Below, piece after piece: positions 2,888-52,012 of a stretch of DNA of 64,000 nt. A program made the position numbers and the translations under genes. This stretch comes from Gracilariopsis chorda (taxonomy: Eukaryota > Rhodophyta > Florideophyceae > Gracilariales > Gracilariaceae). Every line of letters begins with the position of its first letter. Within the stretch, counting starts at the first letter, position 1. The notes under the pieces are model-generated. The model made no database searches, was not told the origin of the DNA, and was given only the letters and a program-made list of their open reading frames with translations. The stretch lies in assembly GCA_003194525.1 (NCBI GenBank), contig NBIV01000175.1, forward strand, positions 62,001 through 126,000. Reading direction: 5' to 3'.

Positions 2888-3825
2888 TGTGAGGCAACGC
2901 GAAAGGCATGGAAATCGCGATGATAATACTCATAGGAGTGTGAGGTGGTTACCGTGACGGCTCTACCGTGTATGATTTGGACCCGTACGAGGTGATGCTA
3001 ATGGGATGGTTTGATTTGTGAAGTTTCTCCTAGGAAGGTAGAAGTCTGGAATGGATTGCAGGATGAGTGGACGCGTATGCGCGTGTGCGACAGCACCATG
3101 CTGTAGTGTTATGTTTTATTCGGGATGACCCCTCAGGGTGCCTGACACTGGGTTGGCCACGTGTATGGGCCTGAGGAGGGTGCAATACTGTAGTTAATTA
3201 TTTTTATTTATTATGGTATTATACCTAAGGTGAGCGCGACTTCGTCGTCGTGAGCACTAAGTAAAGGTAACCCGAGCCTTCGGTTTTTCATAACTGTTTA
3301 GTTTGACCTGAGGTATCTGGCTCTGGATTGTGCGGTCGTTGTGCCGTGTACTACTGCTCGCGGAGGGTCACCGCATTCGGTTCGCTCAATTCAACCACTC
3401 AGTAAGCATACCGATACTCTGTATTATAATTGTCGTGTGACATGTTTCTGCCGTGTGGTACTGATATTGCCCCTGCATTGGGTAGTTTGTCCGCTACATC
3501 CCGTGCATATATACCCCCCGTCAGGTCTGTTTCCGCTTTCCGCGCGACCTATCGGGTGGTTTTTCTCTGTCCTCGGAAGGCACCCTTCACCGGTTATAAT
3601 CTAAACCGCCGCATCGCGTGACACACCGGTCTCTGGTTTTACCATCTTTCTTGCTCTGGTTCACCTTTCTTTATCCAACTCTGTTGTCAATCCGAAATAA
3701 CTATGGACTTACGCCCGTAGTACAGGTATACAGAGGGCTCTGTCACTGGGTCTGCCTCCACAGGGAGCAAGGCCCTGGACATCTTGGGTGTGATACCCAT
3801 CCTTCGGGTTTTGCACTATAATTAC
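2888..3825 (+). repeat. Repeat unit S1 (solo-LTR-like), plus orientation
   Basis: About 938 bp starting TGTGAGGCAACGCG and ending near TTGCACTATA. It is flanked by CTTTC (2883-2887) and CTTCC (3826-3830), an imperfect 5-bp duplication. It is closely similar in inverted orientation to S4 (7252-8151 plus 10823-10865) over nearly its whole length. It contains the family hairpin GCGACTTCGTCGTCG followed by CACTAAGTAAAGG near 3235-3265. It interrupts the pogo-like transposase between its N-terminal and DDE regions. The right boundary is uncertain by about 5 bases. Confidence 0.75.
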
Positions 3826-4545
3826 CTTCCGTTTATGGTTTGCGGTCGTTTCGGTCCCGCATAGTCCTCTCAACATGCGTCGCACACAAAATACTGTGCT
3901 CAAACGAATCATTGCACAAAACCCTGAACATATGAAAATGTTTGTGGAGATCATAGAAAACGTCAAAGCAAAGATGCCACAATTATTCACGGACCCCCAA
4001 AAGGTAGGAAAGCTGGATGAGACGGTAATTTCTGCGTCATACGGTCTTCGCTATCGAGGCTTCAACTCTGTAAACTGTAGAAACGGAGCCATCACAATGA
4101 CAATGAAAGACAGCAGAAAGCACCTTACGTCTGTCATCATGAGTTGTGCTGCTGGGCATATTGCCCCAAGTTTTCTCATCGTGCAGGGAAAATATCCTGT
4201 TGGAAATTGGACGAATCCCTTTCCCCCACATATCACCGCAAAAATCCGGGACGAGCACATATGGCTTGGAGAATACGAGAGGCTCCCAATTGGTACCGAT
4301 GTCGTATGCGGCTCAAAAAGGACAGTAACGAAAGAAATTCTGCCCAAAGTGATAGAGAATTTCGATTTCTTTGCTCGCAAGTTTGTACAACAGGAAGAAA
4401 AGATTCTTCTTTACATCAATTGCTACCGCTCCAGGAAAGGGACAGAGTGGATTGCAGTGGCACTGGTCAAAAACATTGAAATAATTCAGCTTCCAACGAA
4501 CAAGCCCCACTTTCTGCAGCCTCGCAACTATCGCATAAACAATTT

Positions 4546-5477
4546 CGTAGTGCAAACCTCGGGAGAGGGGAGGCACTCAAGGTTTTCGAAGCCTTGCTCC
4601 CTGGGTGAGTAGCCCAGCTGGTAGAACCCTCCATATCACACGGGTGTAGGGTGTAAGAGCAACGGCGACTTCGGATATACTACGGAGTTGGGCGTTTTAG
4701 TCCTGGAGTGCGTGAAGGTATGGTGAGTTTGGCGTGGAAGCCGTAGATACGGAAGCCCAGAGAGGAATAAAAGAGAGACGAAAAAGGAAAAGAATCCGTA
4801 AGCACGGCGCTGTACAGATCCCAGAAAAGGAGGTTCTTGTAGCCACGAGAGAGACCAAATAACAAAGAAACAACCCTGTACAGGAGGGCAGAAGAACGTC
4901 CTAGATACACAGGAAAAACCACAGTGAAGAAAAGTGATAAAGTGGTACACTTTGGTCCAGTCTTGCCTGGATGACCCTGAGAGATTGTTACTACCGTGAC
5001 CAGCCGTGTTTCTTCCCACGCAGGATACGGAAGCTCACGTAGGCGGCAAGTATCAGGTCCGACACTCTGCAAAGAGTAATCCTCAAGGGTGAGCCTCCGC
5101 TCCTTTTACAAGGAAGCGGTGATGGCGAGGAGCCATCACCTAAGTAGGCACGACCCCGGAGTCTGACACTAGGGTTTGCAGCTTACATCACGTGGCACTT
5201 CTCAGATCGGGAGGTGCACGAGCCTCCTAATGAGGAAAATACTATAAAAGTAAAAATTAAAATAGCCGAAAATACTGGGAAAATCATACACACCCATCCA
5301 TCTATTCCGATATCCTCTGGGCTACCAAGTATTGGTACACGTCAGACACGTATCCACTGCCACGTTTCATGCCAGCAGGGACGCTGTATCCCATAACCAC
5401 CGTTACCAATGCGCACGGGATACATGCGATATATGATCCGCATCTTCGCTAAGTCGCGAGAAGTGCATTGCACTACA
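4546..5477 (-). repeat. Repeat unit S2 (solo-LTR-like), minus orientation, TSD AATTT
   Basis: 932 bp bounded on the plus strand by CGTAGTGCAA (4546) and TTGCACTACA (ending 5477), a near-perfect 10-bp inverted terminus. A perfect 5-bp target duplication AATTT lies at 4541-4545 and 5478-5482. It interrupts the pogo-like transposase just after its LQP motif, and excision restores the frame into the 5483-5640 piece. The hairpin block near 5126-5155 (GATGGC...GCCATC, then CTAAGTAGG) corresponds to the one in the other units. Confidence 0.85.
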
Positions 5478-5640: not shown

Positions 5641-6473
5641 TGTGGTGCAATGCCCCAAAAGGGGAAAAACACCGAAAGACGTTCGGGATCTTCCTCTCAC
5701 GAGGTGAACCCAGTTGGGTAGAGCCCTCCCAGAGGTGTCACGGCGAAGCCGGTTTGTAAGACCAGGGACACCAGTCGCGACTTGCGCAGGGAGGTGAAGG
5801 CGAAGAATCGGTATCCGCGTGAGCGGGGTGTGATCCTCAGTAGAGGTGTGTTTCCACGTTAGTGGGGAAGTGTGAGCGGGTGCACACAGGAAGGGCCGCG
5901 GGTAGCTGGATGTACTACCCTGAAAGGGGAAAAAGAGAAGAGTGAAGGGAAAGGAGGAAGAGTGGGCGAGGCTGAGTCGCGAGAGCGACGAACAAATACG
6001 GCAATGCCGGTGGACAGGACGCCCTATACAGGGCGAAACACCAATGTTATTGGAACAATTATACTCCCAAGGATGGGCCTCTTTAGATGTGCAAGGGGGT
6101 TAGATGTCCCGTGGTTCACGGCGTTTCCCTCCAAGGAGGAGTAGAGTACGCGCGCAAGCGGTAACAACTAGAGCGAATTCCCCAGGTTGGGGTCCCTTGT
6201 TGGGGAAGGTTTACTGGTGCGACGGTAGTGCGCCGTCGCACTAAGTACTAGCTTCCCAGAAATGGGTGTGAAAAAATAAATAAAATCAACTAAAATACTC
6301 CACATTTCGTGGCAACATCCACTACTGTGGCCAACCGCCAATTGACCCAAAACGGTGTCCCACGTGTCCATACCCACCATTGTGGTGCGTAGTTCATATA
6401 CACACTACACAACCGATAATATCGGGAAAACAATCAAGTACCAAGAATCCCTTCCTGAGGGCGTTGCACTTCA
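5641..6473 (-). repeat. Repeat unit S3 (solo-LTR-like), minus orientation, TSD GTATC
   Basis: 833 bp from TGTGGTGCAA (5641) to TTGCACTTCA (6473), with a perfect 5-bp duplication GTATC at 5636-5640 and 6474-6478. It is the third insertion into the same transposase gene and sits only 163 bases from S2. The hairpin GTGCGACGGTAGTGCGCCGTCGCAC (split across 6212-6240) is followed by TAAGTAC. Long stretches match S7 (49.1-49.75 kb) in inverted orientation. Confidence 0.87.
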
Positions 6474-7251: not shown

Positions 7252-8151
7252 TGTTGTAGTACAAAGTTCGAAGGATTGGTATAACACTCAAAGTGTCCGG
7301 GACCTTGCTTCCTGTGAAGGCATACACAGTGACAGAGCCCTCTGTATACTTGTACTACGGGCATAAATACATAGGTATTTCGGATTGACAACAGAGGTTG
7401 ATAAAGAAAGGTGAACCAGAGCCACAAAGACTGTAACACAGAGACCGGTGTGCCACGCGATGCGACGATTTAGAATATAGTCGGTAAAGGGTTTCTTTGG
7501 AGAAAGGAGAAAAACCACCCGGCGGGTCGTGCAGAGAGCTTGAAATGGTCGGGAGGAGGGTGCATGTGCATAGGATGTAGCGGAAGAACTACTGAATACA
7601 AGAACGCTACCAATGCTACGCTGTAGAAAACTTTGACGCGACAATTATAATATAGAGTATCCGTATGGTTACTCAGTTGTTGAAAGGAGTGAAACGAATG
7701 CGGTGACCCCTGCCAGCAGTAGTACATGGTGCAACAACCTTACAATCCAGAGCCGAAGACCTCAGGACAAACTAACCAGTTATGAAGAACCGAAGGCTCG
7801 AGTTACCTTTACTTAGTGCTCGCGAAGACGAAGTAGCACTCACCTTAGGTGTACTACCATAATAAATTAAAATCATTAACTACAGTAGTGCACACCTCCT
7901 CAAGCCCACACACGTGGCCAACCCAGTGTCAGGCACCCTGAGGGGTCAACCCGAGTAAAACATAACACTAAAGCATAGTGCTGTCGCACACGCACGCACA
8001 CGCGTCCACTCATCCTGCAATCTATTCCAGATGTCTGCCTTCCTAATAAGTGAAAATTCACACATCAAACCATCCAATTAGCATGATCTCGTAGGTGTCC
8101 AACTCATACATGGTAGATTCGTCATGGTAACCACTTCACACTCTTATGAGT

Positions 8152-8174
8152 GGGTCGCTCCGAAAAACACAAAT
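8152..8174 (+). repeat. Harbinger left terminal inverted repeat
   Basis: Starts GGGTCGCTCC and runs into the A-rich block AAAAACACAAAT. It mirrors 10800-10822. Confidence 0.88.
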
Positions 8175-8262
8175 TTGTACCAGCACTCAAATATCAAACT
8201 ACGTATTGACAGATTTGATACGACTGAAATGGGCACGAAAAGTCCGTACCAATTCGGCAACT

Positions 8263-8284
8263 CTCGCACACAATTGTGTGCGAG
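8263..8284. repeat. 22-bp perfect palindrome in Harbinger 5' region
   Basis: The half-site CTCGCACACAA is followed immediately by its reverse complement, giving a perfect 22-bp palindrome about 110 bases inside the left end. Subterminal palindromes can be transposase or Myb-partner binding sites; that role is inference here. Confidence 0.7.
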
Positions 8285-8309
8285 TACGACACCGAGTACG
8301 AGCGTCCCT

Positions 8310-9487
8310 ATGCCTTCTATATCTGCACTCTTGCTCGCGATGCTGGCGCACCGTCAGCGCCAGGTGCCACGGATCGGCTTACGAAATCGATTAACGATTG
8401 CAGGAAGAAGACGTCGAGACCGCAGAGTAACTCGCCGGGCTTTACAAAGTCCTGCCATTTCCCCGTTTATGGTGCTGCTTCAGTCAATGTGCGATCAATC
8501 TTTGATAACGGTGACCGGCTTTGACCATTACACGTTTGTTGCTATACTACAGCAGTTTGCTCCACTATATCGCAGATTTACTCCCTACTCGGAAGATGAA
8601 GTCATCAGAATCATCGCCTTAACGAATCGCACAAGGGGGAGGCCGAGACGTATGTCCGCGACTCAGTGTTTGGGGTTGGTTCTTGCATGGCACAGAACAC
8701 GGAGATCGATGTTTACGTTATGCATGCTCTTTGGCATTACATCGTCTGTGTGTTCAATTTTCATTCGCTTCGGGAGAAGGCTTCTACTTCGTGTACTTTC
8801 AAGGGGCAGCCGGGCACAAGTACGGATGCCGGATCAGCACGAGATGGAACAGTATAAGACTGCCTTTTCCACTAGGTACATGTCTCTACAAAATGTGTAC
8901 GCTGTAGTGGATGGCCTCAAGCTGTACTTAGAGCAGTCTGTGGACTTCGTAATTCAAACATTTTTTACAACGGCTGGACTCATGACCACTACATTGGTAA
9001 CGTCTTTGTTTTTGCACCGTCGGGGACTATCGTATCATGCGCAATAAATGCACCTGGATGTATGCATGACTCACAAATAGCAGAATGGGGCGGAGTATAC
9101 AAAAAACTTGAAGATTGCTACACGACTTACGGGGGCCGATGTGTGGTAGATTCTGCGTTTTCAAAAGGAGACTATCCGTTTCTCATCAAATCCGCTCAAG
9201 ATGAAACTAGGGCAGATGGTGCGGCCGAAGTCGTTCTGTTGAGACAAGCAACTTCTGCAAGACAAGCGTCGGAGTGGGGTATGAGGGCTTTTCAAGGCTC
9301 ATTCCCAAGAATGAAGGATCGACTCGTTTATGAAGAACACGGAGAACGAAAGCCAAATCTATACTGTACCGTCCTACTCTTCAACTTGAGAGCTCGTATG
9401 GTTGGTATCAATCAAATCTTATCATCGTATATGCCGCATCTTAGTGCAGAAGCTAACTTTTTCTTGCACGAATCGCTACATATCTAA
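8310..9487 (+). pseudogene. PIF/Harbinger (DDE_Tnp_4) transposase, one frameshift
   Basis: Nuclease of the PIF/Harbinger family, which acts with a Myb-like partner to cut at the terminal repeats. Visible blocks in order: basic N-terminal segment, helical block GRPRRMSATQCLGLVLAWHR, first catalytic Asp in YAVVDGLKLYLEQ, then after a frame change FYNGWTHDHYIGNVFVF, NAPGCMHDSQIAEWGG, second Asp in CVVDSAFSKGDYP, and the Glu block SEWGMRAFQGSFPRMKDRL. The only visible damage is a missing base in the CAAAC run near 8955-8958 (frame 3 to frame 2). Start chosen at 8310; an upstream Met at 8229 is possible, and anything before 8152 lies outside the element. About 392 codons. A sequencing error could explain the shift. 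Confidence 0.87.
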
Positions 9488-10521
9488 AGTTTTTTAGCGC
9501 GAGCGTTTTGAGCTACAAGCATGGTCATCATTTCCATAAGCTGCTGGTGTCGTGTAGCCTCTTCTTGAGCTCTCCTTCTGTTCTCTTCTCGATCCTCTCG
9601 ACGACACCTCATATCGTCCTCTCTACGCTGTGGCTCTTGCAACAGCGACATTTGAAAAAGCTGGTAAAAATTATCTCCTTCGGTTTCCCTTGATGTGCGT
9701 GAGAGACGAGCTTGGGACCTCTTGAAGACGATGGGGCGCACTCCCATAGTCGGGCGTGGACTATCAACAGAATCAGCGAGAATGTTGCTCGGGGTGGCGG
9801 GAACGTGCTCAACATTTGGCGAGTTCGGGGCAGCGAGCTCGTTTTCATCGGCGTCCATTGTGTCATCAGCTTCTTCATCACTGCTCGGTAAAATTCCACC
9901 AATAGTCTCTTCTGCACCTGCACCTTCGCCTATGTCAGCTCTCTCGCACATACGCAAGCGTAGAGGCTTGGCTCGTCGCACGTCATCCGGCATCCGTGGA
10001 TCGTCTGTTGGAATTTTACGACTGTGGAGTGTAGCAAACTTACGCTTGATACTATCCACAGTGCGGTTTTCTACGAAAAATGTCTCGCCGTGCTCTTTTG
10101 CAACCATATCCCACTCCTCTTCACAAAGAGTTAGATACTTTTCAATTACATTTAATACACTTTCGACTTCTTTTTGCGTGAAGCCGGTACCTCGACTAGA
10201 ACCAGAACGGCGGCCGCCTCGCTGACGAGGTCGCGGTCTCAGGCGATGAGCAATGGTAGGAATATGACCACTATTTCTAAGTCCATATGCCTGGAAACGA
10301 GACTGCAAAGCCGCTGTAGAAGTTGCGCGTGCAGAAGGCGCATTCTGCGTAAACACGGCACCGGCAGTGCGTGAAGGCGGTTGAGAATCGCCCAGCAATG
10401 GCGCCGGGGTAGTGGGGGGCTGCGGAGAAGAATTGACAGATAGAGGTGCTTCAACGGGAGTGGTTGAAGCAAATCCGGAAGTCGGTGAAGCGGAGTGAAA
10501 AGGGATGTCTGCTGGAGCCAT
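9484..10521 (-). CDS. Harbinger-associated Myb/SANT-like protein (DUF6818-like)
   Basis: 345 aa, the DNA-binding partner usually found beside Harbinger transposases; it helps import the transposase and recognise the ends. Residues ~1-110 are Pro/Ser/Ala-rich, then a basic stretch (RPRPRQRGGRRSGSSRG). A Myb/SANT-like helical region (~115-180) contains TQKEVESVLNVIEKYL and the recognition-like segment VDSIKRKFATLHSRKIP, resembling DUF6818 proteins of oomycetes and red algae. An acidic patch follows (SSDEEADDTMDADENE), and the C-terminal ~60 residues form a charged coiled coil (QRREDDMRCRREDREENRRR). The frame is intact. Its stop codon overlaps that of the transposase in the opposite direction (9484-9487), so the two genes converge with no spacer. 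Confidence 0.82.
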   Translation of the reverse strand: MAPADIPFHSASPTSGFASTTPVEAPLSVNSSPQPPTTPAPLLGDSQPPSRTAGAVFTQNAPSARATSTAALQSRFQAYGLRNSGHIPTIAHRLRPRPRQRGGRRSGSSRGTGFTQKEVESVLNVIEKYLTLCEEEWDMVAKEHGETFFVENRTVDSIKRKFATLHSRKIPTDDPRMPDDVRRAKPLRLRMCERADIGEGAGAEETIGGILPSSDEEADDTMDADENELAAPNSPNVEHVPATPSNILADSVDSPRPTMGVRPIVFKRSQARLSRTSRETEGDNFYQLFQMSLLQEPQRREDDMRCRREDREENRRRAQEEATRHQQLMEMMTMLVAQNARAKKL

Positions 10522-10799
10522 CTGAAGGGCAACGGTTCCGGACGTGAAACCGCAGGGAGGCGGGAGGGGGAAGGGAGGGGCGGGTGTTTGGTGGTAAATG
10601 GTACGTAAGCCCGCCTTTCAAGAAGGTCGTTCTCAACGCTCAGAGTATGCGTAGCGCGCTTTCTCTTATTGCGCGCCAAAATTTGATATTTGCTACATTG
10701 TAGCAATCTGTCTGACGAGTGGGTGGCATATCTACTTCGAGCGGTTTGCGCACACTCTTTTGGTGCAAATGCTATCAATTTGAGTACACGCATTTTGCG

Positions 10800-10822
10800 A
10801 TTTGTGTTTTTAGGAGTGACCC
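10800..10822 (-). repeat. Harbinger right terminal inverted repeat
   Basis: Reverse complement starts GGGTCACTCC, then TAAAAACACAAAT. Followed directly by AGT, the second copy of the target duplication. Confidence 0.88.
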
Positions 10823-10865
10823 AGTAGCATCATCGCGATTTGCACGCATTTCGCGTTGCACCACA

Positions 10866-14357: not shown

Positions 14358-16055
14358 ATGAGGTCTCTCATCGCCTTTTGGGTAATCTGTGCCTTGTTTT
14401 CAAACACTTTTGCTCAACCCCCTCGCGGAAATGGGCGAGGAGCAGGTTTCCTTCGTCCTGCACCCCCTCGCAGTTCGTTCTTCACTCTGCAGTCAGGGCC
14501 AATAAGTGATATAAATCCAGAATGCGCCGCCCAAACAGTCCGTGGCCTTACTGGCCGCTGCACCTCTGCGTTGGATCCTAATCTAGGTGAGGCCCGTCGT
14601 CCCCAGTTCAGCTACCTTGACGTCAATTCTGTCAATTTTGCGGACGACGGACTCCGTAGTCCGCGAGAAATATCGAATATTGTGTCCGATCAGAGCGGAA
14701 ACACCCTCAACTCCAGGCGTTTGAACGAACTCTTTGTCTTCTTCGGTCAGTTTATTGATCACGATTTTGCTTCCTCACCTATCACCGACGAAGAAGAACC
14801 TATCGAAGTCCCATCCGATGATCCTGACCTTGGCGTTAGCACTTTGGGATTCGAACGCAGTCTTCGCAGTCGTATCAGCGCTGACTCCACTATCGAGCGC
14901 CCCATTACGGTGTTGTCCTCTGCTCTAGATCTTTCTACGGTCTATGGTGTAGACTTGGAAAGAAATGATTTCTTGAGGGTACCCAACTCCTGCCGTATGA
15001 AAACTTCTTCCGGAAACAACCTTCCATTCAACTCTGGCGGCTTCACCAATGCCCCATCCTCATCTAGGAACTTCTATATTGCAGGTGACACTCGTGTGAA
15101 CGAACACCCAGTGCTTACTACGATGCACACTATCTTTTTGCGTGAACACAATCGGCTTTGTGAGCTTATTGAAGGCGCTTTACCAAACATGGCGGCGAAC
15201 GACATGTACGAAGCCGCCCGTGCGATCAACATCGCCCAGTACCAGAAAATCATCTACGAGGAATGGCTTCCGGCTATTCTTGGTCGCAAGCTGCCCCGTT
15301 ATACCGGCTACAAACCCGAGGTCGATCCAACCATCAGTCTGGAGTTCACAACTGCTGGATTCCGTCTTGGTCATACTATGGTTGGCAATGGTGTGAGCAG
15401 AATTGATGCCAACGGAAGGCGCCTGCCTCTAATTACAATGGAGCAGATGTTCTTCCGTTCGAGTAATCTGCAGGAGGGTGACATCGAGAACTTCATTCGT
15501 GGAGCTGCTGGAACACGTGCCCAAGAAGTGGACGCCCTTGTGGTTGATGCACTGAGGAACTTCTTGTTCAGGAATGTGCCAGAGGAAGGTGGAATCGATT
15601 TGATTTCGCTCAATTTGCAACGTGGCCGCGATCACAATGTCCCGCGATTCAACGAACTTCGCCGATTCTTCCTTGGCTCTTCTGCCAGATCCTTCCAGGA
15701 AATCAGCCGTGACAGGACAGTTCAGAGAAAGCTGCAAGATGCGTACGGAAGCGTCGATAACGTTGAGGCATGGCCTGGTCTTATGGCAGAAGACAAGTCT
15801 GGTGCGGCTGGAATCGGCCGAACCAATGCGGAGTTATGGAAGAGAGAATTTACGCGTCTTCGTAATGGAGACAGGTTCTTCTATCTGGACAATGCTCGTC
15901 ACAACCAAATTCCACAGAATGTCCTGCGAGCTCTTCCTGAAGTGGATCGTGAGATCTTCTCCAGCCAGACAATGTTCAGCGCTATCCTTCAACGCACTAC
16001 TTCCATTCCAAGAAGCAGACTCTCGTCTGGTGTGAATATCTTCCGTGCGTCGTAA
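14358..16055 (+). CDS. Secreted animal-type haem peroxidase (peroxinectin/peroxidasin-like)
   Basis: 565 aa, single exon. Member of the peroxidase-cyclooxygenase (animal haem peroxidase) superfamily: haem enzymes that use H2O2 to oxidise halides or phenolics. Residues 1-19 are a signal peptide ending ...NTFAQ. The distal His lies in FFGQFIDHDF (~135). DLSTVYG (~191-197), GDTRVNEHPVLTTMHTIF and LREHNRL (~251-267) are the family core. The proximal His is in AGFRLGHTMV (~339), and LNLQRGRDHNVPRFNELRR (~419-437) is the C-terminal signature. No LRR or Ig domains, so it is the short secreted form rather than a peroxidasin. A TATA box sits 80 bases upstream and short AAAGGGT hairpins flank the gene. 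Red algae carry expanded families of these enzymes, used in halogenation and oxidative defence; the substrate here is not predictable from sequence. Confidence 0.95.
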   Translation: MRSLIAFWVICALFSNTFAQPPRGNGRGAGFLRPAPPRSSFFTLQSGPISDINPECAAQTVRGLTGRCTSALDPNLGEARRPQFSYLDVNSVNFADDGLRSPREISNIVSDQSGNTLNSRRLNELFVFFGQFIDHDFASSPITDEEEPIEVPSDDPDLGVSTLGFERSLRSRISADSTIERPITVLSSALDLSTVYGVDLERNDFLRVPNSCRMKTSSGNNLPFNSGGFTNAPSSSRNFYIAGDTRVNEHPVLTTMHTIFLREHNRLCELIEGALPNMAANDMYEAARAINIAQYQKIIYEEWLPAILGRKLPRYTGYKPEVDPTISLEFTTAGFRLGHTMVGNGVSRIDANGRRLPLITMEQMFFRSSNLQEGDIENFIRGAAGTRAQEVDALVVDALRNFLFRNVPEEGGIDLISLNLQRGRDHNVPRFNELRRFFLGSSARSFQEISRDRTVQRKLQDAYGSVDNVEAWPGLMAEDKSGAAGIGRTNAELWKREFTRLRNGDRFFYLDNARHNQIPQNVLRALPEVDREIFSSQTMFSAILQRTTSIPRSRLSSGVNIFRAS

Positions 16056-36191: not shown

Positions 36192-39100
36192 TTACGACGC
36201 AACCCTCATCTCCATGAATACAAGGTCGAGGTCCTCTCGCTGTGCAGCAATGGTTTGTACCTGAGTTCTGTGTCGGGCAGGATCGGGAGCTGCCATGACA
36301 CGATGGAGTGAAATTCGGGGAAGGTCATCGTCTCTACGGATCAAAATCATTTCGGAGTCTTCCTCGATGATTTGGAACGGACCAAATGCCGCTGGGGATA
36401 GCTTTTGCCTCCTTCGGAGCTCTCTCTTTCCCTGGGATGTCGTCCCGTCTGGACGTTGAAAACGCACAAAAACGTGAACGCCTACCTGCAGATCCGGAAT
36501 CATAGGGCGCAGGCTGGCGTCATAGTTCTGCTTTTCAGCGGATCTCGGCAATTTCTATTTCTCTTTCTGCCTGCTCCGCGCGTCTCCTTAGGTCGTCCCT
36601 TCCCTTCAGGTGGTTTTCAGCCGCTCTTGGGGGGTCAGATTCGCTGTCTTCTTCCAACTTCAAGGGTAGCGCCGGCGAACGTCGAGATAGAACCCGCTCG
36701 AATGGAGCGATCTTCGTAATCGAATGGACCTGCGTGGTGTAGGCGTAGCAAAGTGTAACTGTGTAGAGAGTTCCATCTTTTGGGCTTTTGGGTGGTCCCT
36801 GATATAGTTCCAAAAAGCGGCAATACTTGTGTGATTAAAACGCTAAACCGCCTGTCGGTTTGTTCGTGGTATGTCGTAGTAAACAAGTTCTTCACGAAGA
36901 GGATGCGGCATGTATCTTGGAAGAACTTCGCAACCAATTGCTTCCCATTATCTGATAGCAGATTAAACGGCGAGTCATACACAGAAACCCACTCCCTCAT
37001 AAACTCTTGTGCGATAACGGCAGCCAAGATCCGCTTAAGCGGGCCTGTTTGGGTTAGCTTCGAGAATCGATCCGTAATTACCAATAATTACTTACTTCCT
37101 GGCTTTGCACAAACCAGTTCACCCAAAATGTCGATGCTGACCTACTACAAAGGCGCTTTTGCCAGAAATAGTTTCAGTAACCGTTTTCTTTTCCACAACT
37201 TGATGCGATTTTTCGTGCATGACGTGCACAGCCTTGCCGTAGCATAGCAATTCATCCCCATTGCTGGCCAATATAGGTCCCTTCTGAGCTTTTGATAGAG
37301 CTTAGTTCCACTTGGATGTCCAGATAACTGGAAGTAATGAACTAGGTGCAAAACGCGACTCTTTAAAACGTGTGGAATCACGATTTTATCCGATAGTTCG
37401 ACAGTGCGAACTAGTACTCCTTGTCCATCAAGACAAAAAGTTAACCCTTGCCCCCGTTAGGATGGGAGCCTACTGAAGTGCATAAGTCGTCTACGAGTTG
37501 CTCACCAAGGAGATCTTCGTACGAGATATGCTCGAGCTGTTTTGACGGGTCCGTGTTGGTGGACTGCGCTAACAATAGGTCCAAAGTGAGGTTTTCATCG
37601 TTTATAGACGGATGGGTTTTTCCTAATGTATTTAGCAGCAAAAGCGCGTCTGTGTGCACATGGGAACGTCACTTCTTGTACTTGACATCGAAGTCAAATT
37701 ATGAAAGGCGTGAGTGCCAGTGCATTAAGCTTAAAAAGAGGTCAGAGATTGAAAGCTTACAGCGGAGGCAAGAATGATGCCTTTTGACGGTGGATTGTAC
37801 CCTCAGAAGGTAAGGAAGGAGCCTGGTGAGACCCCATACCACAGAAAGGCCTTCCTTTTAAAACAAAGGGTAGTTGCGTTCCGCTGTTTGCAATGAACTT
37901 GAAAAATAGCCAATTGGTTTCCGTTTACTGTCAGCATAGACCAAAAATATTGCCCAGTCCATCTGGTACTCATTTGTGTCGGTATTGACAACAACGTAAG
38001 GGAACACGAGTCTGGGGAGGGCCAGTATCGGTGCTGATACCATACTTCCTTTAGGCGTTCGAAGGCGTCCGTATCGGCTGGTCCGAATTCGTTCAACTGC
38101 GTTGAGTGGTTTTTCTTTTACGTTTAAAGAGGGGGCGATATTCTAGTAGCGCAGAACAAACCGTCGGCATACGTTACACAGGCCAAGATAAGCACGGAGT
38201 TGTGTTTTTGTCCCGAGAGGGACCGCCTTGCGAATTGCCCCAGTCAAGGCCTCTTCCTTCTTTATTCGTCGTAATTTGATCAGTTGTTCAAGCTACCGGA
38301 CCTTATCCGCAACCAATTTGCATTTCTTGAGATTCAAGGTGATTCCAGCTTCCTGGAGCGTGTTGGGTAATAGCTAAACGACCCTGAAATTGTCTCCGAT
38401 GTTCTTACTGAAAACGATGAGGTCATCAAGATAGGCCAAGGAGGTCTTCCACTTGTACACTCACAACATAATATTTTTAACACGTTGGCACATGGTAGGA
38501 GCATTTTTGAGTCTAAAAAGCATTCGTTTGAGTCGGTAGAGACCGGCGTGGCAGAAAAAGGCCGTTCTGTCACGGTGTTCTTTAGCCATAGGTACTTGCC
38601 AGTAACCGCAACTGGCGTCAAGTGTAGTGAATATCGTGGCATCACTTAAGCTATCGATGCACTCACACATTCTTGGTATTTGGTAAATGTCCCGAACAGT
38701 TGCTGTGCCCAGCGTCCGGTGATCCAAGCAGAAGCGTAGTGATCCATCGGCCTTGGGTGCCATAATAAATGAGGATGCCCAGGCTGACTGAGCTGGCTCG
38801 ATGACCGCTTTCTCCAGCATCGCGTCCACCTTCTGCTGCTCAATTTCCCGCGTTCGAGGACCCAACATGTAAAGATGTTGAGCTATGTGCCTTTTGCCCA
38901 GAGCGAGATTAATATGGTGTTCAGTGGCCACGATATAACCCAGTCTTCAACTCTACATAGAGGAATACTTTTGAAAGAACCTGCCTAAGCGTTACCGGTG
39001 TTGTTACGATACATGGGAAAGGTCCAAGTCAACAATGAACCATGGTAACTCTCCGGCCTTCCAGTTCTCTTGTGACGTTAGCTACTCTTCTTTTGCCGTT

Positions 39101-39740
39101 TCCAGGGACTGTATTTCAGCTGGTAACGAGGTACTCAAAACTCTCGCTAAGAAAGTATGCGTCGGCACCTCGGAGGCTGCATCTGAGCAACGCTGTTAGC
39201 GGCAAGTATACCATTACGTTCGTATGTACGAGACCGAGCCTGACTATCGATGAAGTCATGGAGCTGAGTGGTTACCGTAACCCATGTTTGAGATTCTGGA
39301 GGTATTTCTACTCCACGTGCAGTGTTGATCTTTGGAGATGTTCTCCTGCTCCTCCCAGCATTCTGGAAAGGTGGTAAGGGCACTGAAAGTGAAGCCAGCC
39401 TCATCGGTTTCTGAACGATTGAGAAGGTGCTTCCATTCTCCATCTCCACTTCCGGGGAACTATTGCTTCTACTAAGATGTCACAGTAATCGCATCCACCA
39501 ACACCTTTGGCAGCCAATATGGCACAGACAATGAGTTCCAATATGAGAACATGGCTTTATAATCAAACAGCAAGTCGAATTGTGCCCAAATTATCAAGGG
39601 GCTTCTTCTTTGCATCCTGGATATCCGGTAGTGGTCTGCATTGTATTCTGGTTCGATCAAAAGGGCTGAGTTCAGATACCTTGATAAAATTCGGTCCTGC
39701 GCTGGTATCCAATATCGCAAGACGTCGTTACAGTAAGTGT
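36192..39740 (-). pseudogene. Chromovirus pol: protease, RT, RNase H, integrase
   Basis: Broken polyprotein. Protease: AILDTSAGPNFIKVSEL near 39720-39670 (DTGA-type). RT: VIEPAQSAWASSFIMAPKAD, SLRFCLDHRTLG and TTLDASCGYWQVPM (38931-38461), with the catalytic YLDD just downstream at 38423-38434 in another frame. RNase H: NTDTNEYQMDWAIF and FSSSLQTAERNYPLF (38043-37858). Integrase: HHCC finger with HYFQLSGHPSGTKLYQKLRR...CTSC (37381-37145), core VITDRFSKLTQT and LLSDNGKQLVAKFF, and a tail with FGPFQIIEEDSEMILIRR (GPY/F module, 36551-36192). The integrase Glu block after YHEQTD is disrupted. Multiple frameshifts and stops; not functional. Confidence 0.88.
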
Positions 39741-40705
39741 CGATCGGTGCTGATATCTGCGTAGACCTTATGTGTATGTTTTGCCATAACCATAATGGGG
39801 TCAATCAGTCCCCCACATCACTGCTATCGTCGCCATGATGGACTTAGTTTGCAGTTAAACTGGGTTTGGGATGCAGTAAATCCGGAATTTCCTGGCCTAA
39901 GGAGAACCTTTGGCTCCCATACCGGGGAGTGAAGAAGACACTTCTCGTCAGCCACCACATTGAAATCGAGCTCTGCCGACTCCCCTGAGGCTCCTTCCGT
40001 TACATACCCGAATGCTTTTGTTTCTCTTTCGCCATGGTGGTTGCAGGCAAACTGCGTGACGGATGAGTCTCTGGTACTTCAGTGTAAAGCGCCGCAGTTA
40101 TTTTTTTTATACTGTATAGATCCACTGCAACAAATCCCTTAGCTTTCTAATACATCGTCGCTGGTATATGAGTTCGTTCAGCTTCGGGCAAAGCCGCGTA
40201 ATTTGCGATAACAGCGTGCAAATTCCTTGCAGGAAGAGTTCATTCAACTGCCATATTGGTGGCGTCCGTAGCACACATAAAACGGTATGTCTTCTGGTCA
40301 TAGGCGATAGTGAGTATAACATTGGTTAACAGCACGGCTATCTATCTATCAAGGCTTGCTTGGCTTGACCCCTCGGTGTGGGGGTGCCGTCACTGCGTAT
40401 GGTGGTCGCCTTCTCTTCATAATGGGAAATTGCGAACCTTCCGAAGGCCTAACTGTGGTACGCAATTCCATCGTTGGAACCTATGAGTCTGGATAGTCCA
40501 GGTACTATATTGCTTTCTCCGGCGTGTCCCTCTCATCCAGGTATAGAGATGACGAATAAGTAAAATTCTCGGTGCGCTTCTCATACTGCAATTTTATGGT
40601 CTCGGGCGTTTGTGTACGGGCTGGGCCATCCTTTTATGCCACGCAAGCCATTAATAAGCATTGTTGTCTGCGGGGGCGAACTCCAACGCCTTCGTCTCGT
40701 CGGAA

Positions 40706-41807
40706 CTATACTACTTCCATGAAAATCATGTTACAATGCATTTCTCGTGGTCTGGCGACCAAAGTCTTTATAACCAGATCCATTCCGTTCAAGAATAGCT
40801 TCATCTTCTCGTCAGTCGAGTGAAAACTTCCACACCTAGTAGCAGCCCTATTCAACCGAGACTTGAACTCCACGTCCTTATCTCCAGGTTTCTGGGTAAC
40901 ATCCCCGAGCTTTAGCATAGCCTTTCAAGTGCGGCTCGACGTCGCTTAATTTCGCGCAGAAAGTGCACAGCTTCTGGCCGGTTGGTGACTCCACCTTCTA
41001 CCACGGTTAGAGACCGGACACGGCGCCATTCTGGTCCAGGGCAAATACTGTCATTAAATGTAGTTTGGTAACATATGCTTGAGCTTCAGTCACTACTCAC
41101 ATATCCCATTCGGTCAGAAACCGAGAAAGAAAGTCAAAGATAAGGATGGGGTCCTTTCCATCAAATATGAGATCACTCATACCAACTTTAAGCCTCTTAA
41201 TCTGATCCATTACACTACCTGCTTCACGACTTGTTCGCTGCACCTTCCGCACTTTCAGACGGTAGAAGCGATAGTCAATGATCCTCCGATATACCTTATT
41301 CTTGCATGAGAGCATCTTCCGTGCCTTCTTGGACGGGTACTTCTTGCAGCGTACGCAAGCAGCAGTACTGCGTCTTTTCTTACTCTGTGTACGAGAATCT
41401 TCGTCACTGGACATAGCCTGTGATGCGTCTTTCTCATATTCTTCTGACCCAGAGCAATCGAGCTCCGAGTCCTCGACATCATCCGGATCTGAGTCTGAGG
41501 CGGGCTTTCGAAACTTCGTATGCTTTGTCTTTTACTTCTCCGAACGGGATTTACCAGGAGTAGGTGGTTCGGCATCGATCTCGATCGGACTGGTAGCAGG
41601 GATCTGTGTATAAACCATAGCTTCTAGCCTTTCCAGGCGAGGGTTGACACGCATGACAACCTTCTCCACGTTGATGGGCATTTCCGGTAGTAACCTGGAG
41701 GCATTTTCTTGTAGCTCCATCAATTGGGTCAGATCCCCTCGACTCATCCGAAATGTTGCAGTCATTTGCGCGCTTTCACTCTGGGTCACCAGTGCATGGT
41801 GATTCAC
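40706..41807 (-). pseudogene. Chromovirus gag remnant
   Basis: Pieces in three frames: an N-terminal acidic/helical part (41807-41532), a Lys/Arg-rich part with CVRCKKYPSKKARKMLSCKN (41414-41097) leading to MSDLIFDGKDPILIFDFLSRF, the capsid-like 'FDG...FL' motif, then GDKDVEFKSRLNRAATRCGS and STDEKMKLFLNGM (40918-40706), typical of retrotransposon gag. About 1 kb downstream toward the protease is too decayed to read. Confidence 0.65.
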
Positions 41808-42370
41808 ACGTAGGCGTCTAGCGACCTAGTCAGCGCAGCGAGCAGCATCCCCATTTCTGTGATATGGGTTCTGTGTCATCCCGAATCATTTCGGAGACGT
41901 TGCACTGTTTGTAGCCTGGTCTCTGATGAAGGTCCTGCGGGGCTTGCACCTCTTCGCACACCTGTGGTTTGACTGGTCTCCGTGGCCAGTACATCAGCTT
42001 CCACTGGGACGGCGTTTGTCTACTAGGCTATTGATCTGATAGCTTGCCTAACAAGGCGGTTCCCAGCTTCCACCGAAGTGGGTAGCCCTTCAATTTGTGA
42101 AGGTTGTGCAGAAGGACCATGCTGTCCGGAACTCAAACGAGTACAAGTCTGGACCATTCCAGGTATCTTATGTACAACAATTGCAGCAAATGTCCAGTCT
42201 TCTAAGAGTCACGTTATTATAATCCTTGTAGCCATAGCGAGTAGTATAGAACTCGAAATGGGGCTGATACCAGGCAATAAACTCGAGATGACTCTTTTCG
42301 CTTCTGTAATCGGAGTACCACTTTGTATCACAAAATCAAAGTCAACGATATCTTCTAGATTGGGAGAACC

Positions 42371-44003
42371 GAATTTCGGTATCAAAAGTATTCCTTTTGA
42401 GTCACTTTGTATCTGGCAGTGATCCGCAAAAAAACCTTACAGGTAGGGTTGCCGCTTGCAGTGGCAGAGTCTTATAGATATATCGAACGACTGTAGCGCG
42501 ATTATAAACTTTATCACGGGTAAACGAGTAGCGCGATTGGTGTGCTTGGATGGGCACGGGACACTGCAATTCACTAACTAAATTTGGAAATCCGAGTGAG
42601 GTTCCAAGAATAGAGGCTTGGGTTCATGCTCGTGTGCCTGTCAGCTTAATGAAGATGTCCAAATGTCAGTGACTAGCTACTGCGCGGACAGCCTCCCTTA
42701 CCTGCTGATAGTCATAAAATATGTAGATATTCTAGACGTGTCCACCGTGGCAACCACTTACTGTGCAAAAGTCAAATTAGTGGTGAGATCCACATATAAA
42801 TGGCACTGTAGCGCAATGCGCTACTCATGAGACCCGCCGCTATCAGCGGAGCAAACAGCAGGCAAAACTTGGTAGGAAGAGCCAAGCAGGTCCAGAATAT
42901 TCCGAATCCCTGGCTCGGTTCTACACTTCCGACGGAAGTACGATTACTGAGCGATGCCCATAGCTACCAAAAGAACAAGCGCCTAATAGACGTACAACAA
43001 AAATGTGTCGGGCTTGGCATAAGACCACTAGAACCACAGCGAACTTTGCCTGGCGACAGAAAACATGAGAACAGCCTCGAGATTGGACCAGTGCCCGGAC
43101 GAAAGCCTACGCCTAAATCTCCTACTAAGCTTCGATCGAATACCATACGTGTGCCACCAGGAGAGCATGGTATCCATGACATTGCGCCAGAGCCCAGAAT
43201 TGTACGTCTGCTACGGCTGCACCTTCTGGCACTCGAAGTGAGCGATGCTCACTAACCAGGGTTCGCGTTTCACCCAAGTATGGGGGTCGATACAATAGTG
43301 CGGCTGTCTACTCAGACAGCACGGTTGCCAGGAGCCCAACGGGAAAAGCGACAGCGCAACGAGTACTATTGGCGGCGGAAGGCCGGTAGCGACGAGGACT
43401 GAACGGGTAATACGCGGCGAGTGTGGGACCCAAGGTGGATCTCGACTATAGTTGCGCGAGCTATAGCCGGTTTGGTAGGCGTTTACACGGGAGTAAGGCC
43501 CCAAGGACTGGTGTTGAAATACTAGAACGGCAGTTCGGAAGCCATCAAGAGCTCGACTGGCTTTACTTAGAAGCTGGAGCGTGAGTTGAGCACACTAATA
43601 TGGCCGGGCGCTGGGACAGCTGTCCTAAAGTTAGTCTATTCTAATAAATAAAGTGCGTAGTGGTACAAGTGTACACGCGCCCGCGCGCGGCAGTCTACAA
43701 AGAACCAGTGCCACACTTGGACATGGCTACGCCTAATGGGTGCCAAGTGCAGGGCGGCAGTGCCGCCACAAACTAAAAAATTCAGGGCACCACCGTATAA
43801 AATAACAGTGTGGCTGCACCGTAATGGCTAGACCTCTGGCCTCTATATAAGGGCAAGGTCCACTGCGCTACAGGAACTTTCGCGTGCGCGCGCTAATAGC
43901 CCGTAAGGGTATTCCCAGTTACCCGGAATTACCTGCCTGGCATGAATTGTTTTCAGAGACTTAGGCAAAAACTGCACCTGGGATCACCGAATGACACCAT
44001 GCG
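42371..44003 (-). repeat. Chromovirus 5' LTR with ~1.06-kb extra segment
   Basis: Matches the 3' LTR at both ends but contains an additional 42839-43900 segment absent from it. No convincing tRNA primer-binding site was found next to it, consistent with decay. Confidence 0.68.
42839..43900. mobile_element. Possible 1.06-kb insertion in the 5' LTR
   Basis: Present in only one of the two LTRs. Ends GCTATCAGCG (left) and CGCTAATAGC (right) are inverted with one mismatch in 10. Contains a TATATAAG box near 43848 and a 142-codon plus frame (42827-43255) with no recognisable domain. No clean target duplication, so a deletion from the other LTR is an alternative. Confidence 0.4.
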
Positions 44004-44008
44004 CTACG

Positions 44009-44185
44009 TTGATCAGCTGGTAACACAATTTTCGGGAACATCTCCCGTGGTGTAACCCGAAGCCACCTCGGTTTTACACCCGAACACCGTGTTGTACATA
44101 GGGCCCTGTCGCTGAGTCTACCTCGTAAGAGAGCAAACCCGCAAAAACCTTGGGAGGATCTCCCGCCTAGGGATATTGCTCCACA
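44009..44185 (+). repeat. Repeat unit S5, second part
   Basis: Resumes S5 after the chromovirus (TTGATCAGCTGGTAACAC aligns with S6 AAGCGCTGGTAAACC) and ends TTGCTCCACA, followed by AGTGT (44186-44190), one mismatch from AGTAT before the first part. Total S5 length without the insert is about 1000 bp. Confidence 0.77.
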
Positions 44186-44855: not shown

Positions 44856-45933
44856 TGCAAGTGCACGATGTAAACAAATGCGTGTGCGCATGCCCTCTGG
44901 AGGAGGTGAATCATAAGGATGACGTACCGACGTGGCATTGGCTCAACTCAAGTATGTTTAAACCCTTCGAATTTTGGGTGAAAGTCATGCAGAGCAATGC
45001 GTATGTGCATACCCTCAAGGCAATGTGGATCATGAATGATTCAGTACCCACGTGGCATCCGTTGAACTAAGAAATGAGTGGACCCTTGGAAAGTTTTGGG
45101 TGAAATGGGATATGAATTCTGTTTTGTATTTCTGGAACCTTCGTGCGTGATTTATATGATATCTGGAGTAATTGGATGCGTGGTAAGAGTATTCATGTTA
45201 TTCATGGCTAGCATGATTCAGAAGTGTTGTTTTGCGACATAGCCAGCCATGTCACTCAGTCACACAATCGTGTGGACTACACGTGTGGCATACTACAGTA
45301 GTAGTATTCTTAGTTTTATGATGACCCAATAGTAGTTAAGGGGGGACGGCCCTGGCTGGTCACCCTGAATTAGAGCTAAGCTGTGACTCGGCTCTGAATT
45401 TATCGCCTGCGCGAAGTGACCAACGCGTCTTCGAGTTTCACCGCGTTCTCTCTCATTATACTCACTCACAAAGTATCATGTAGAACCGCTGACCGGTCCT
45501 GCCTCGTAGGTTCGCCCAGTGTCAACTTTTATAACGTCTTGATTGCTTTCTGTTGTAGGAACAGATAATTATTCGACTCAGTATTGAGTTGGCCGTGCTG
45601 GCTGAATAAGCACCACCATCACCGTCGTGTGCTTTTCGGTTTTATGCATAACCCGTGGGGTTCTACTCCTCTCTCTGGTCTTTTCCCCCTTTTTTTATTT
45701 TTTCTTTGGACTCACCGTGGACTCGTACAACACTTTCAAAGACCTTTGCACTAAGTCAAAAGCGCTGGTAAACCGATTATTAATAACATTTTCGTCGGCA
45801 TAGCATTACGCCACCTCCGTTTTGCACCCCAATACCGTGTGGTACGGAGGGTCCTGTCATCGCGCCTACCACAAAGTAGAGCCAGGCCGTAAGAACCCCT
45901 AGTTAATATCCCTTCTAGGTCTATTGCTCTACA
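44856..45933 (+). repeat. Repeat unit S6 with internal tandem duplication
   Basis: About 1.08 kb starting TGCAAGTGCACG and ending TTGCTCTACA. It matches S5 from the GGATCATGAATGA block to the end. Its first part is a direct duplication of about 115 bases (about 44878-44990 and 44998-45105; both contain ACGTGGCAT and TTTTGGGTGAAA). No matching 5-bp duplication seen. Confidence 0.7.
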
Positions 45934-49117: not shown

Positions 49118-49755
49118 GAAACCCAAGCGTCGCCCTCATGTAGGTATTTTTGGCACTTGGTTGATTTCCCGAATGTTTCGGTAATGTTCTAATTGCATGA
49201 ACTACGACCAGTAATAGTGAATTAAACAGGTTGGACATGGAAAAATCAGTTGGTGGTTGACCACAGTAGTGCGCATGAACCAACGATGCGGAGTAATCTT
49301 AGATAATTCTAGTTCTTATTGTACACCCATTTCTGGCACGGTTAGTACTTTGTGCGACGGCGAATTGCCATCGCACCACTAAACGTTCTCCAGAAAAGGA
49401 CCCCAACCTTAGGAATTGGGCCAAAATCACGTGCTCTCTACTCCTCCTCGGAGAGAACGACCTTACTGTAGGGAAAGTCTATCCCCTTGCCCTTCTAAAG
49501 AACCCCAGTACTGGGACTGTTATTCCAACTGCTTTCGTGTTCGAATTTCTATAAGGGCTACTTTCTGGCATTGTCGTTTATCTTCGTCACTACTCTCGCG
49601 ACTCAGTTCCCCTTTTTTTCATCGCTTTACAGGGTGTCTTTCCAGCTGCCCGCGGCCCGTATATGCACCTGCCGCTTTCGTGGATGCGTAACCTCCCTCG
49701 AGGGCACTCAACCACATAAACCGCTTCGGTGGATAACCGATTCTTGCCTCAACCT
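49118..49755 (+). repeat. Repeat unit S7, 3'-truncated
   Basis: Starts TGAAACCCAAGCG and is an inverted match of S3's outer ~600 bases, including the hairpin GTGCGACGGCGAATTGCCATCGCAC (split across 49352-49376) and CCGCGGCCCGTATATGCACC. The similarity ends near 49755 without the usual TTGCACTACA end. Confidence 0.75.
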
Positions 49756-50205
49756 GAATACAATCCGTGTGGCAGAAGAGAGTGGCTCTGAAGAAATTGG
49801 GGAGGGAGATGTGTCTTTTTTTCACCACAAGAAAAAGATAGAACTGCTCAAAGAACGGAAAAGGAAGTGCAAGGTAGACTAGCAGGAGAGCGGGGATGCC
49901 ATGGACACTGAAACTCATGGAGGGCTTGAAAAAGTATCCGATTGTGTGATAGGAATTGAAAAAATTGGCGACGCGACGTAATTTGAACAGCGTTCTCATC
50001 CCTTGAGAATGGCTTTCCAATGAAAGATGGTAAGGCTCAAATAGATAGGAATGAGTCACGCAGAGGGTATCTAGAGGTAGTTCGGAGAAGAGAGGGGATG
50101 TGATATCGAAAGAAGTACGAAGAAGGTGTACTGCACTACTACCGACGAAGGCGAATCAGATTTAATGACTCAGCATCTTTTATTTCTAGTCTCATCGAAG
50201 AGATT

Positions 50206-52012
50206 ATGCAATCTGTGTGGAAGAGGGATGCTAACAGTACTAGGAACAGTGATGCAAACGCGAAGGGAAGAACGAGCAGGGGGAGAGGACGGAATATCGC
50301 ATGCATTTCGGGCGTCGTCAATGAGGTGGATAAGAAATGGGAAGTATTTGATCTGCTATTCTTCGTGTTTCAAATGTGTAGAACAGAGAAGAAGTTTGGA
50401 ATGCAACGCTTACAGAAGATAATCAGGACGTTCGTACAAGACCATCACCTCATTAACGCGCGTTTACGTTGTGTGCGCTACAAACGTCCCGATTCCTGTC
50501 GTGCAGTAATACTTGCGAAATTGCAGAGTTCTGCAATGATTTCGTCGTTTGCGAGAACGTCCAATCATTATCATGAACCATTGGTGGCTTCTGATACCAA
50601 TTCAATTAAACGGTATGATGCTTTTATCACATCAGTTTGTAATAGAATCAGAGAATGGAAAAATGACAAGGCTTTCATGGATGCAGCTGGTCGTTGGAAG
50701 TGTTTTGACGACACTTTGATTCCCTTTTATGATCAGAAACGCGACTTGTTACCAAAAACGTCGGTGAGTGAAGTGCAATCCTCAAGGAGGAAGACTCAGC
50801 GATGCCCTGTGGACTTGGTGTTTTTGCCGCTTTCGCGTGTTTATGATTACTACCGCTATTAGCGGGTGTCTCAGCCCTCAGCGGATCCGCGCTGTGCGCC
50901 AGGTGCACGCCTGTGCATGCGCCGTGTGCCGCCCAAGGCGTGAGTGGACCACGTGTGACACGGATAGTCAAGAGGAGGTTGGCACCACGGTGTGGAAATT
51001 TGGTTAACTTATATTTATTATTCATTATTTATCTAAGCTACAGTAGGGAGGTTACTACACTATATAGTGGCTCGGCGACCTCGCCCTGACACTGAGTAAA
51101 CTTCCCCAACCAGGGTTCTTGGCTCTAAGTCTTTTCCGCTTTCGCGAGTCTTCTACACTCCTCGGAGGTAAAGCCGCGTTACTAACGATAGACCTATCCA
51201 CCCTGCGTCACTAGGAGTATCACCGCCTTGGGCACTTGTCACTTAATTCACCACCGCCGTGTTCTCGCCCCTGTATAGGGTTCCTTTGTACCTTTTCTCG
51301 TGGTCCCGTTGGCCCACACCCCCGTCGCCCCCAATCGGGCATCCCCCGTATTTCCCTTACCCCACTCTCGTGGTTCCTACCCCTTTGTGTGGTTGCTCGT
51401 CACCGCTGACGCGTGTCTCTCGTGCCGGTATCCCGTGACGTCTTCCCCCACTCACGTGGACTCGTACACCTTGGAAGGGCTGTTTTCCCATTCGTGGTGA
51501 TCCTAATCCTACCGTTTCAACTCTCCCCGCTTGGCGTGAGGGTGAGCCTCGGCTTTACAACCCGACTTCGTCGTGCTCATCCGGAGAGGCTCCGTTCGCT
51601 GTGTTACGCTCCAGAGGGGAAGATTCCGAACGTCTTCGTGTGTTGTCCCGCTTGCGGGTATTGCACTACAGTGAGGGTTAGAAACGATCCTGTTCTTAGG
51701 GTCGTAACAGCTACATTACCACATAAGAATGCAATTCAGGAAGTGCCCCGTATTGATATAGAAGCAATGCTATGGAGTGGGGATGAACCTCGCTGTGCAG
51801 CGGGGCTGGACTCTGTGAAAAATTGTTTCAAAGATGTAGAATGCATGGAGTCTGGCAGCGAAATTATCGAAGCGCATGCAGAGGGATGTGGAAAGAGGAG
51901 ACCAGATATTGAATGCACGGTGGCCGAAGGTAATACAAAGATCAGCTTTGACAGATCCGACGATATCTCCGCTCTGCTTAAAGTATCAGACCACAGTGTG
52001 GTACAGTTGTGA
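50206..52012 (+). pseudogene. Unknown ~300-codon ORF split by repeat unit S8
   Basis: Two pieces, 50206-50768 and 51676-52012. The first encodes a helical protein (MQRLQKIIRTFVQDHHLINA; YDAFITSVCNRIREWKNDKA; YDQKRDLLPKTSV). The second continues RVRNDPVLRVVTATLPHKNA, later EAHAEGCGKRRPDIECTVAE, to a stop at 52012. Removing S8 plus one GTGAG copy (907 bases) joins the two in frame with no stop. No domain recognised. It may be a host gene or the 5' ORF of the Mutator-like element downstream. The start Met is the first in frame and is not independently supported. Confidence 0.6.
50769..51670 (+). repeat. Repeat unit S8 (solo-LTR-like), TSD GTGAG
   Basis: 902 bp, begins TGAAGTGCAA and ends TTGCACTACA: nearly perfect 10-bp inverted ends. 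A perfect 5-bp duplication GTGAG lies at 50764-50768 and 51671-51675. It carries the hairpin GGCGACCTCGCC near 51076 and a CGCTTGCGGG stem just before its 3' end. This copy defines the family's ends best. Confidence 0.9.

Follow-up and report, generated by a model that had tools for sequence, protein, structure and literature searches.

We analyzed a 64,000-nucleotide stretch of the genome of the red alga Gracilariopsis chorda (positions 62001-126000 of contig C175, hereafter the window), in which eight related units, S1 to S8, occur in both orientations, as observed by reading their edges and comparing the units by BLAST. Judging from their sequences, these units are almost certainly the long terminal repeats (LTRs) of a group of Ty3/gypsy chromodomain retrotransposons, those in the window being mostly solo LTRs. 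The original prediction of eight related copies in both orientations holds, their genomic matches far exceeding chance (all genome searches ran on the 91.3-Mb assembly of 1081 contigs). The units are as follows, with similarities between units taken from BLAST within the window:

2888-3820, + strand: S1, single LTR of family S1/S4; 83% to S4; LTR pair on contig C72.
4546-5477, - strand: S2, solo LTR with the duplication AATTT; edges read, full-length genomic copies at 76-86%, LTR pair on C299.
5641-6473, - strand: S3, solo LTR of the most abundant family, with the duplication GTATC; edges read, genomic copies, LTR pair on C38.
7255-8151, - strand: larger LTR piece of S4, family S1/S4; match to S1, left edge read.
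10823-10865, - strand: remaining 43 bp of the S4 LTR, by sequence comparison.
31972-32795, + strand: first LTR piece of S5, family S5/S6; 71% to S6.
44062-44185, + strand: last LTR piece of S5; 71% to S6 over 124 bp.
44988-45933, + strand: S6, LTR of family S5/S6, left end corrected from copy alignments; left edge TGCAGAGCAATG.
49131-49606, + strand: S7, decayed fragment of an S3-like LTR; 68% to S3.
50769-51670, + strand: S8, solo LTR with the duplication GTGAG; edges read, copies at 97-98%, LTR pairs on C30 and C302 with gag-pol.

Several of these limits differ from those first proposed. S1 is a real unit, but it ends at 3820 and not at 3825, the last five bases being flank. The spans assigned to S4 (7252-10865) and S5 (31972-44185) do contain LTRs, but S4 is a unit of about 0.94 kb (7255-8151 plus 10823-10865) around a 2671-bp insert, and S5 comprises 31972-32795 and 44062-44185 around an insert of about 11.3 kb. 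Since both inserts hold coding remnants, the claim that none of the copies carries coding DNA is true of the units and untrue of these two spans. S6 is an LTR that starts near 44988 rather than at 44856, most genomic copies aligning from about position 132-138 of the query; the sequence just to its left (44856-44987) resembles the first ~110 bp of S5/S6, and on this resemblance a partial tandem copy may precede S6. S7 matches S3 over about 49131-49606, but it has no recognizable ends and is a fragment.

The strongest evidence for LTRs comes from paired copies in the genome. A genome search with S8, proposed at the outset as a test between an LTR and a DNA element, recovered two direct copies around gag-pol at both C30:24353-36008 and C302:5614-16629 (copies at 97-98%), as expected of an LTR; the two LTRs agree at 894/902 positions in the C30 pair and 897/902 in the C302 pair. 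A same-strand pair spanning 9-14 kb was found for each of the five queries, namely C38:369383-380772 for S3 (two direct copies with gag-pol in between), C72:133885-145584 and others for S1, C180:82599-93799 for S6, and C299:25483-39898, of 14.4 kb, for S2. Duplications flanking the whole element match at 5/5 positions on C302 (CGTTC), C38 (CCGTG), and C72 (ATTTT), and at 4/5 on C30 and C299.

Coding regions were read in the S8 and S3 elements and in the last ~3.2 kb of the S1 pair. The S8 elements carry a gag-like open reading frame (ORF) with a CCHC motif, recognized by eye. In the S8 element on C30, the integrase ORF matches Pfam H2C2 (5.7e-15) and rve (6.2e-10), and a chromodomain ORF (L010:1606-3237) matches Chromo at 1.4e-5, just above the cut-off. 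The S3 element on C38 matches reverse transcriptase (RT; RVT_1, 9.2e-28) and RNase H (5.5e-36). The order of domains is that of Ty3/gypsy: RT precedes RNase H in the S3 element (L085), and a single S8 ORF (L010:34-1590) holds the tail of RNase H followed by integrase, the order RT, RNase H, integrase being pieced together from these two different elements. The chromodomain lies downstream of integrase, has homologs in L104 and L124 (tblastn), and is also present in the last ~3.2 kb of the S1 pair.

The inner edges of the LTRs show the expected priming signals. Immediately 3' of the left LTRs, we observe AAG or AG followed by TGGTCTCCCGACCTAGAATC, the reverse complement of a tRNA 3' end plus CCA. 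This primer site matches at 20/20 positions in S8 (C30, C302) and S3 (C38), 18/20 in S1 (C72), 16/20 in S2 (C299), and 18/20 in another S2 copy (L051). Purine tracts are found 5' of the right LTRs, AGGAGGGGGATA in S8, TTAGGGGGGGATA in S3, and AAGGAGGGGGAGA in S1, and reading of the edges reveals one in S6 and, weakly, in S2. The tRNA 3' end, searched with a pattern that excluded a following C, has five 17-mer matches in the genome, two of which (L107 on C117 and L108 on C119) lie in tRNA-like genes; no tRNA gene was obtained at the other three (L105, L106, L109). L108 scores 52.5 bits against the Rfam tRNA model and L107 falls below the cut-off, and ARAGORN labels L108 as Asn(GTT) and L107 as Ser(AGA), both intron-containing. 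When the 13-base intron of L108 is set by hand at the usual 37/38 position, a TTTGA/TCAAA stem forms and the anticodon becomes GTA, so that, contrary to the ARAGORN label, we read this gene as tRNA-Tyr, which would make tRNA-Tyr the primer. The sequences of L107 and L108 both fit tRNA-Tyr(GUA), and L107 seems to carry an extra D-loop insertion.

Inverted ends of ~10 bp, predicted for the units as a whole, are clear in S2, S3, and S8 (of the type TGNAGTGCAA / TTGCACTACA), but more diverged in S1, S4, S5, and S6 and absent in S7. The three perfect 5-bp duplications announced for S2 (AATTT), S3 (GTATC), and S8 (GTGAG) are confirmed by reading the edges. Two near-perfect ones were also proposed, but all remaining candidates are weak by eye: S5 (AGTAT/AGTGT) matches at 4/5, S1 (CTTTC/ATTAC) and S4 (TTTGT/ATTTT) at 3/5, and S6 at 2/5. 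S1 reaches 4/5 with a script that lets the boundaries slide.

We used this script to classify 79 copies (20 of S1, 19 of S2, 18 of S3, and 22 of S8), which are the best-ranked ones, so that the shares of solo and full elements are not genome-wide; matches covering <90% of the query were left out (19/20 loci kept for S2). The sliding boundaries favor chance flank matches, equally in copies marked by a primer site or purine tract and in unmarked ones. Primer sites occur in 6, 1, 4, and 9 copies of S1, S2, S3, and S8, respectively, and purine tracts in 2, 0, 1, and 8. No marked copy among 31 has a perfect 5-bp duplication and a single one has a 4/5 match, versus 19 and 13 of the 48 unmarked copies; this contrast in perfect duplications is the pattern expected of solo LTRs. 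By family, the unmarked copies with 5, 4, or fewer flank matches number 5/4/3 for S1, 4/6/8 for S2, 8/2/3 for S3, and 2/1/2 for S8, the score of the window S2 (L049) being held below 4/5 only by the C at its first position. Of the 40 scored S6 copies, we inspected seven by eye, of which two show perfect duplications (C243, C197), two have purine-tract-like left flanks (C2, C185), two have primer-site remains (C209, C26), and one shows neither (C106). In all of these respects, we see no difference from solo LTRs formed by LTR-LTR recombination, which stand singly between perfect target duplications and lack both primer site and purine tract.

Some observations nevertheless weigh against the interpretation of the units as mostly solo LTRs of coding elements. 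The primer sites of S6 in C209 and C26 are degraded (read by eye), and in the S6 pair on C180 the left LTR is truncated, with no primer site seen and no clear flanking duplication on reading the edges. Among the unmarked copies, 16/48 have fewer than 4/5 flank matches, including two, L027 and L098, in which we recognize purine tracts by eye. No Pfam family matches the gag-like ORF. Lastly, under the script rule, S2 has a primer site in 1/19 copies and a purine tract in 0/19, and the interior of its C299 pair lies outside the coding regions read.

This last point bears on whether S2, and perhaps other units, represent non-autonomous LTR derivatives moved by relatives rather than remains of their own coding elements. 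The low number of loose S2 candidates (only 41), the single copy with a primer site, and the ~12.6 kb interior of the C299 pair outside the stretches read would all suit such derivatives. We nevertheless consider them unlikely, given that the C299 pair has, at 14.4 kb, the length of a full element and that age and LTR-LTR recombination account equally well for the scarcity. Far less probable still is a non-autonomous DNA transposon resembling a miniature inverted-repeat transposable element, with ~10-bp inverted ends, 5-bp duplications, and a transposase supplied elsewhere, which was the original alternative. The inverted ends, the duplications, the single noncoding units, and the many copies standing alone agree with it, but the direct pairs around gag-pol, whose inner edges are precisely where the primer site and purine tract lie, already contradict it for S8, S3, and S1, and ends of ~10 bp are far from the 40-270-bp inverted repeats that accompany 4-bp CCGG/CCGT duplications in Ginger1 (PMC2836005). 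Ginger1 and Ginger2 share TGTNR termini and a gypsy-like integrase with the elements described here, but Ginger1 has those long inverted repeats and specific duplications and Ginger2 an AT-rich RTATAY target (PMC2836005); the ~10-bp ends and the varied 5-bp duplications do not fit a Ginger-type DNA transposon.

The solo-LTR reading, the first choice of the original prediction, is thus borne out by the direct pairs around gag-pol for S8 and S3 and the LTR pairs for S1, S2, and S6. Under this reading, reverse transcriptase would copy the element RNA from a tRNA primer, probably tRNA-Tyr, just downstream of the left LTR, and the second strand would be primed by the purine tract that immediately precedes the right LTR. 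Integrase would act on the common ~10-bp LTR ends, creating 5-bp target duplications, and later LTR-LTR recombination would delete the interior and leave a single LTR between the duplications. Newer transposons have inserted into some of the LTRs, as the sequence shows for S4 and S5.

As a kind, solo and nested LTRs of chromodomain retrotransposons are well known. The elements resemble chromoviruses, which carry a chromodomain at the C-terminus of integrase, in their LTR pairs, their RT-RNase H-integrase-chromodomain order, and their TG..CA ends, but differ in the primer, read here as tRNA-Tyr, and in a long antisense gene between the chromodomain and the 3' LTR. Chromoviruses are reported even from red algae (PMC3605345), and the most abundant repeats of the congener Gp. 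lemaneiformis are reported to be LTR retrotransposons, at 17% of the genome (PMC5970526). Conserved stretches of ~7-11 bp at both LTR ends are likewise described as integrase attachment sites in Del elements (PMC4029996) and in LTRs generally (PMC3601003), and an AT-rich block and hairpins within LTRs are known features (PMC4029996, PMC3601003). The general ends TGTTRNR..YNYAACA differ from the TGNAGTGCAA / TTGCACTACA ends found here.

The units were originally described as one family, which sequence comparison contradicts: they belong to several LTR families that have diverged within a single retrotransposon group. We distinguish at least five, S1/S4, S2, S3/S7, S5/S6, and S8, which appear related mostly at the 3' end. 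Within the window, S3 and S8 match at 71% over 119 bp only, and S2 matches no other unit. When genomic copies served as queries, the matches among S1, S2, and S5/S6 were confined to parts of the final ~140 bp (E 3e-5 to 4e-9), one stronger S2 match from copy L067 being excluded because the end of L067 is flanking sequence, and S3 and S8 shared their 3' end and a 75-bp internal block. The genome holds 315, 216, 41, 1924, and 337 loose candidates for S8, S1, S2, S3, and S6, respectively, of which the best 40 per query were scored and listed as matches; the best 40 of the 1924 for S3 are ~95-96% identical. Our searches, which covered openly licensed papers, showed none naming these LTR families, which may be undescribed.

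The antisense gene is the part of the finding most worth following. Between its chromodomain and 3' LTR, the C30 element contains a frame of 529 codons antisense to gag-pol, with a final stop only, and the three sense frames there hold 13, 14, and 15 stops. In the S8 element on C302, the frame is broken; homologs occur in the S3 element on C38 and, decayed, in the S1 element on C72 and in the old gypsy element nested in S5 in the window. The regions, from four element families, are:

L010:3682-5271, - strand: antisense gene region.
L104:101-1657, + strand: antisense gene region.
L124:1755-2945, - strand: antisense gene region.
Window 33738-34861, + strand: antisense gene region.

The predicted protein has ~500-600 aa. 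Between S8 and S3, 156 residues are shared over 261 aligned codons, with differences at codon positions 1, 2, and 3 of 81, 66, and 156, a dN of 0.35, and a dS of 2.45, which is saturated. A genome search gave 84 matches, 50 of them stop-free (82 of 1738 candidates scored), and four protein relatives were found among 5.8 billion proteins (best 7999 candidates scored), one from Gracilariopsis chorda, one from Gracilaria domingensis, and two others. None of six antisense proteins matches any Pfam family at E 1, no PDB match was found at E 1, and the structure model is useless (mean pLDDT 37.4). From these sequences, we lean slightly towards the view that red-algal chromodomain retrotransposons carry a long-conserved accessory gene against gag-pol, with transcription probably starting within or close to the 3' LTR, and that its protein falls outside all described families and may regulate the element like the antisense genes of some retroviruses; the LTRs in the window would be relics of that group.

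The plant Retand, Grande, and RIRE2 elements have similar antisense ORFs, that is, an extra gene of unknown function between pol and the 3' LTR (PMC11963269, PMC7264820). Retand, however, belongs to a non-chromovirus lineage with a TRP28 domain (PF04195; PMC11963269, PMC7264820), and a Retand-type ORF is ruled out here by the chromodomain and the lack of a Pfam match in 6/6 antisense proteins. The main text of PMC7264820 contains no word starting with chromovir or alga, and titles and abstracts of the openly licensed literature yielded no red-algal or chromovirus case of such a gene. The antisense gene provides a case in which the maintenance of an accessory gene by selection can be tested for chromodomain elements outside land plants. 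At the locus itself, the question of LTR or DNA element is settled, much of the repeat content being relics of one retrotransposon group, and the LTR ends, primer site, and purine tract can serve as markers for annotating such elements in Gracilariales.

The inserts in S4 and S5 contain the following features:

8152-10822, strand not assigned: DNA-transposon-like insert in S4, 2671 bp, with inverted ends GGGTCGCTCC.../...GACCC and the 3-bp duplication AGT.
32796-44061 (limits approximate), - strand: old gypsy element nested in S5, with LTR-like repeats and RT and chromodomain remnants.
33738-34861, + strand: antisense-gene remnant in two frames, nested S5 element; tblastn with the C30 antisense protein, E 2.7e-43, 28% and 34% identity.
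35299-35502, - strand: chromodomain remnant, nested S5 element; Pfam Chromo 1.6e-8 in ORF 35044-35505 (-), and tblastn.
38461-38931, - strand: RT remnant, nested S5 element; Pfam RVT_1 1.4e-7.

The S4 insert cuts the LTR 43 bp from one end and has two ORFs in opposite directions, 8124-9047 (+), which starts in the LTR piece, and 9484-10521 (-). It gives a weak Pfam match to DUF6818, below the cut-off, and we take it to resemble a PIF/Harbinger-type element. The element nested in S5 has direct repeats at 32797-33224/42379-42806 and 33220-33339/43873-43992 (75-77%). A purine tract lies next to 33355, and a primer site matches at 14/20 positions at 42370; as the window holds three further 14/20 matches, this one counts only by its position. 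Nesting is also observed at L064 (C119:63609-65473), where an S2 LTR lies inside another S2 LTR in opposite orientation, with the perfect 5-bp duplication TCAAC.

The original prediction also described a shared internal hairpin and a stem before the 3' end. Stability was scanned in 44-nt windows, with controls taken from up to four copies per family. By this measure the hairpin is more stable than any other stretch of S1, S2, and S3 (mean z -2.7, -4.0, and -3.8), but it comes third in S8 and S6. The stem before the 3' end is weak, the share of controls at least as stable being 0.06 in S1, 0.25 in S2, 0.12 in S3, 0.18 in S8, and 0.25 in S6 (one copy); 18/21, 16/20, 18/19, 21/21, and 1/1 units were used, the window copies of S1, S2, and S8 being counted twice. 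For covariation of the internal hairpin within families, the alignments held 20 (S1), 19 (S2), 15 (S3), and 14 (S8) distinct rows. Base pairs are retained in 71.5-95.4% of cells versus at most 58.9% in every slid control, but double changes occur at only 1, 3, 0, and 0 pairs, no more than in the slid controls; since the structure was derived from one member, this is no evidence of selection. By eye, S1, S2, and S3 share the frame TACTTAG - hairpin - AGTAAA, with stem sequences that differ. We accept the hairpin as a stable feature of these three families; a role in polyadenylation or RNA start is a guess. At L013:501-1986 (C20:442151-443636), an S8-type LTR is followed directly by LTR positions 321-902; this second part begins at the AGTAAA block 3' of the internal hairpin and is 569/582 identical to the same region of the first copy, the whole being flanked by TTAAC/TCAAC.

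Elsewhere in the window, two long ORFs on the + strand look, from their translations judged by eye, like an animal-type haem peroxidase (14358-16055) and a ClC chloride channel (60578-62854).

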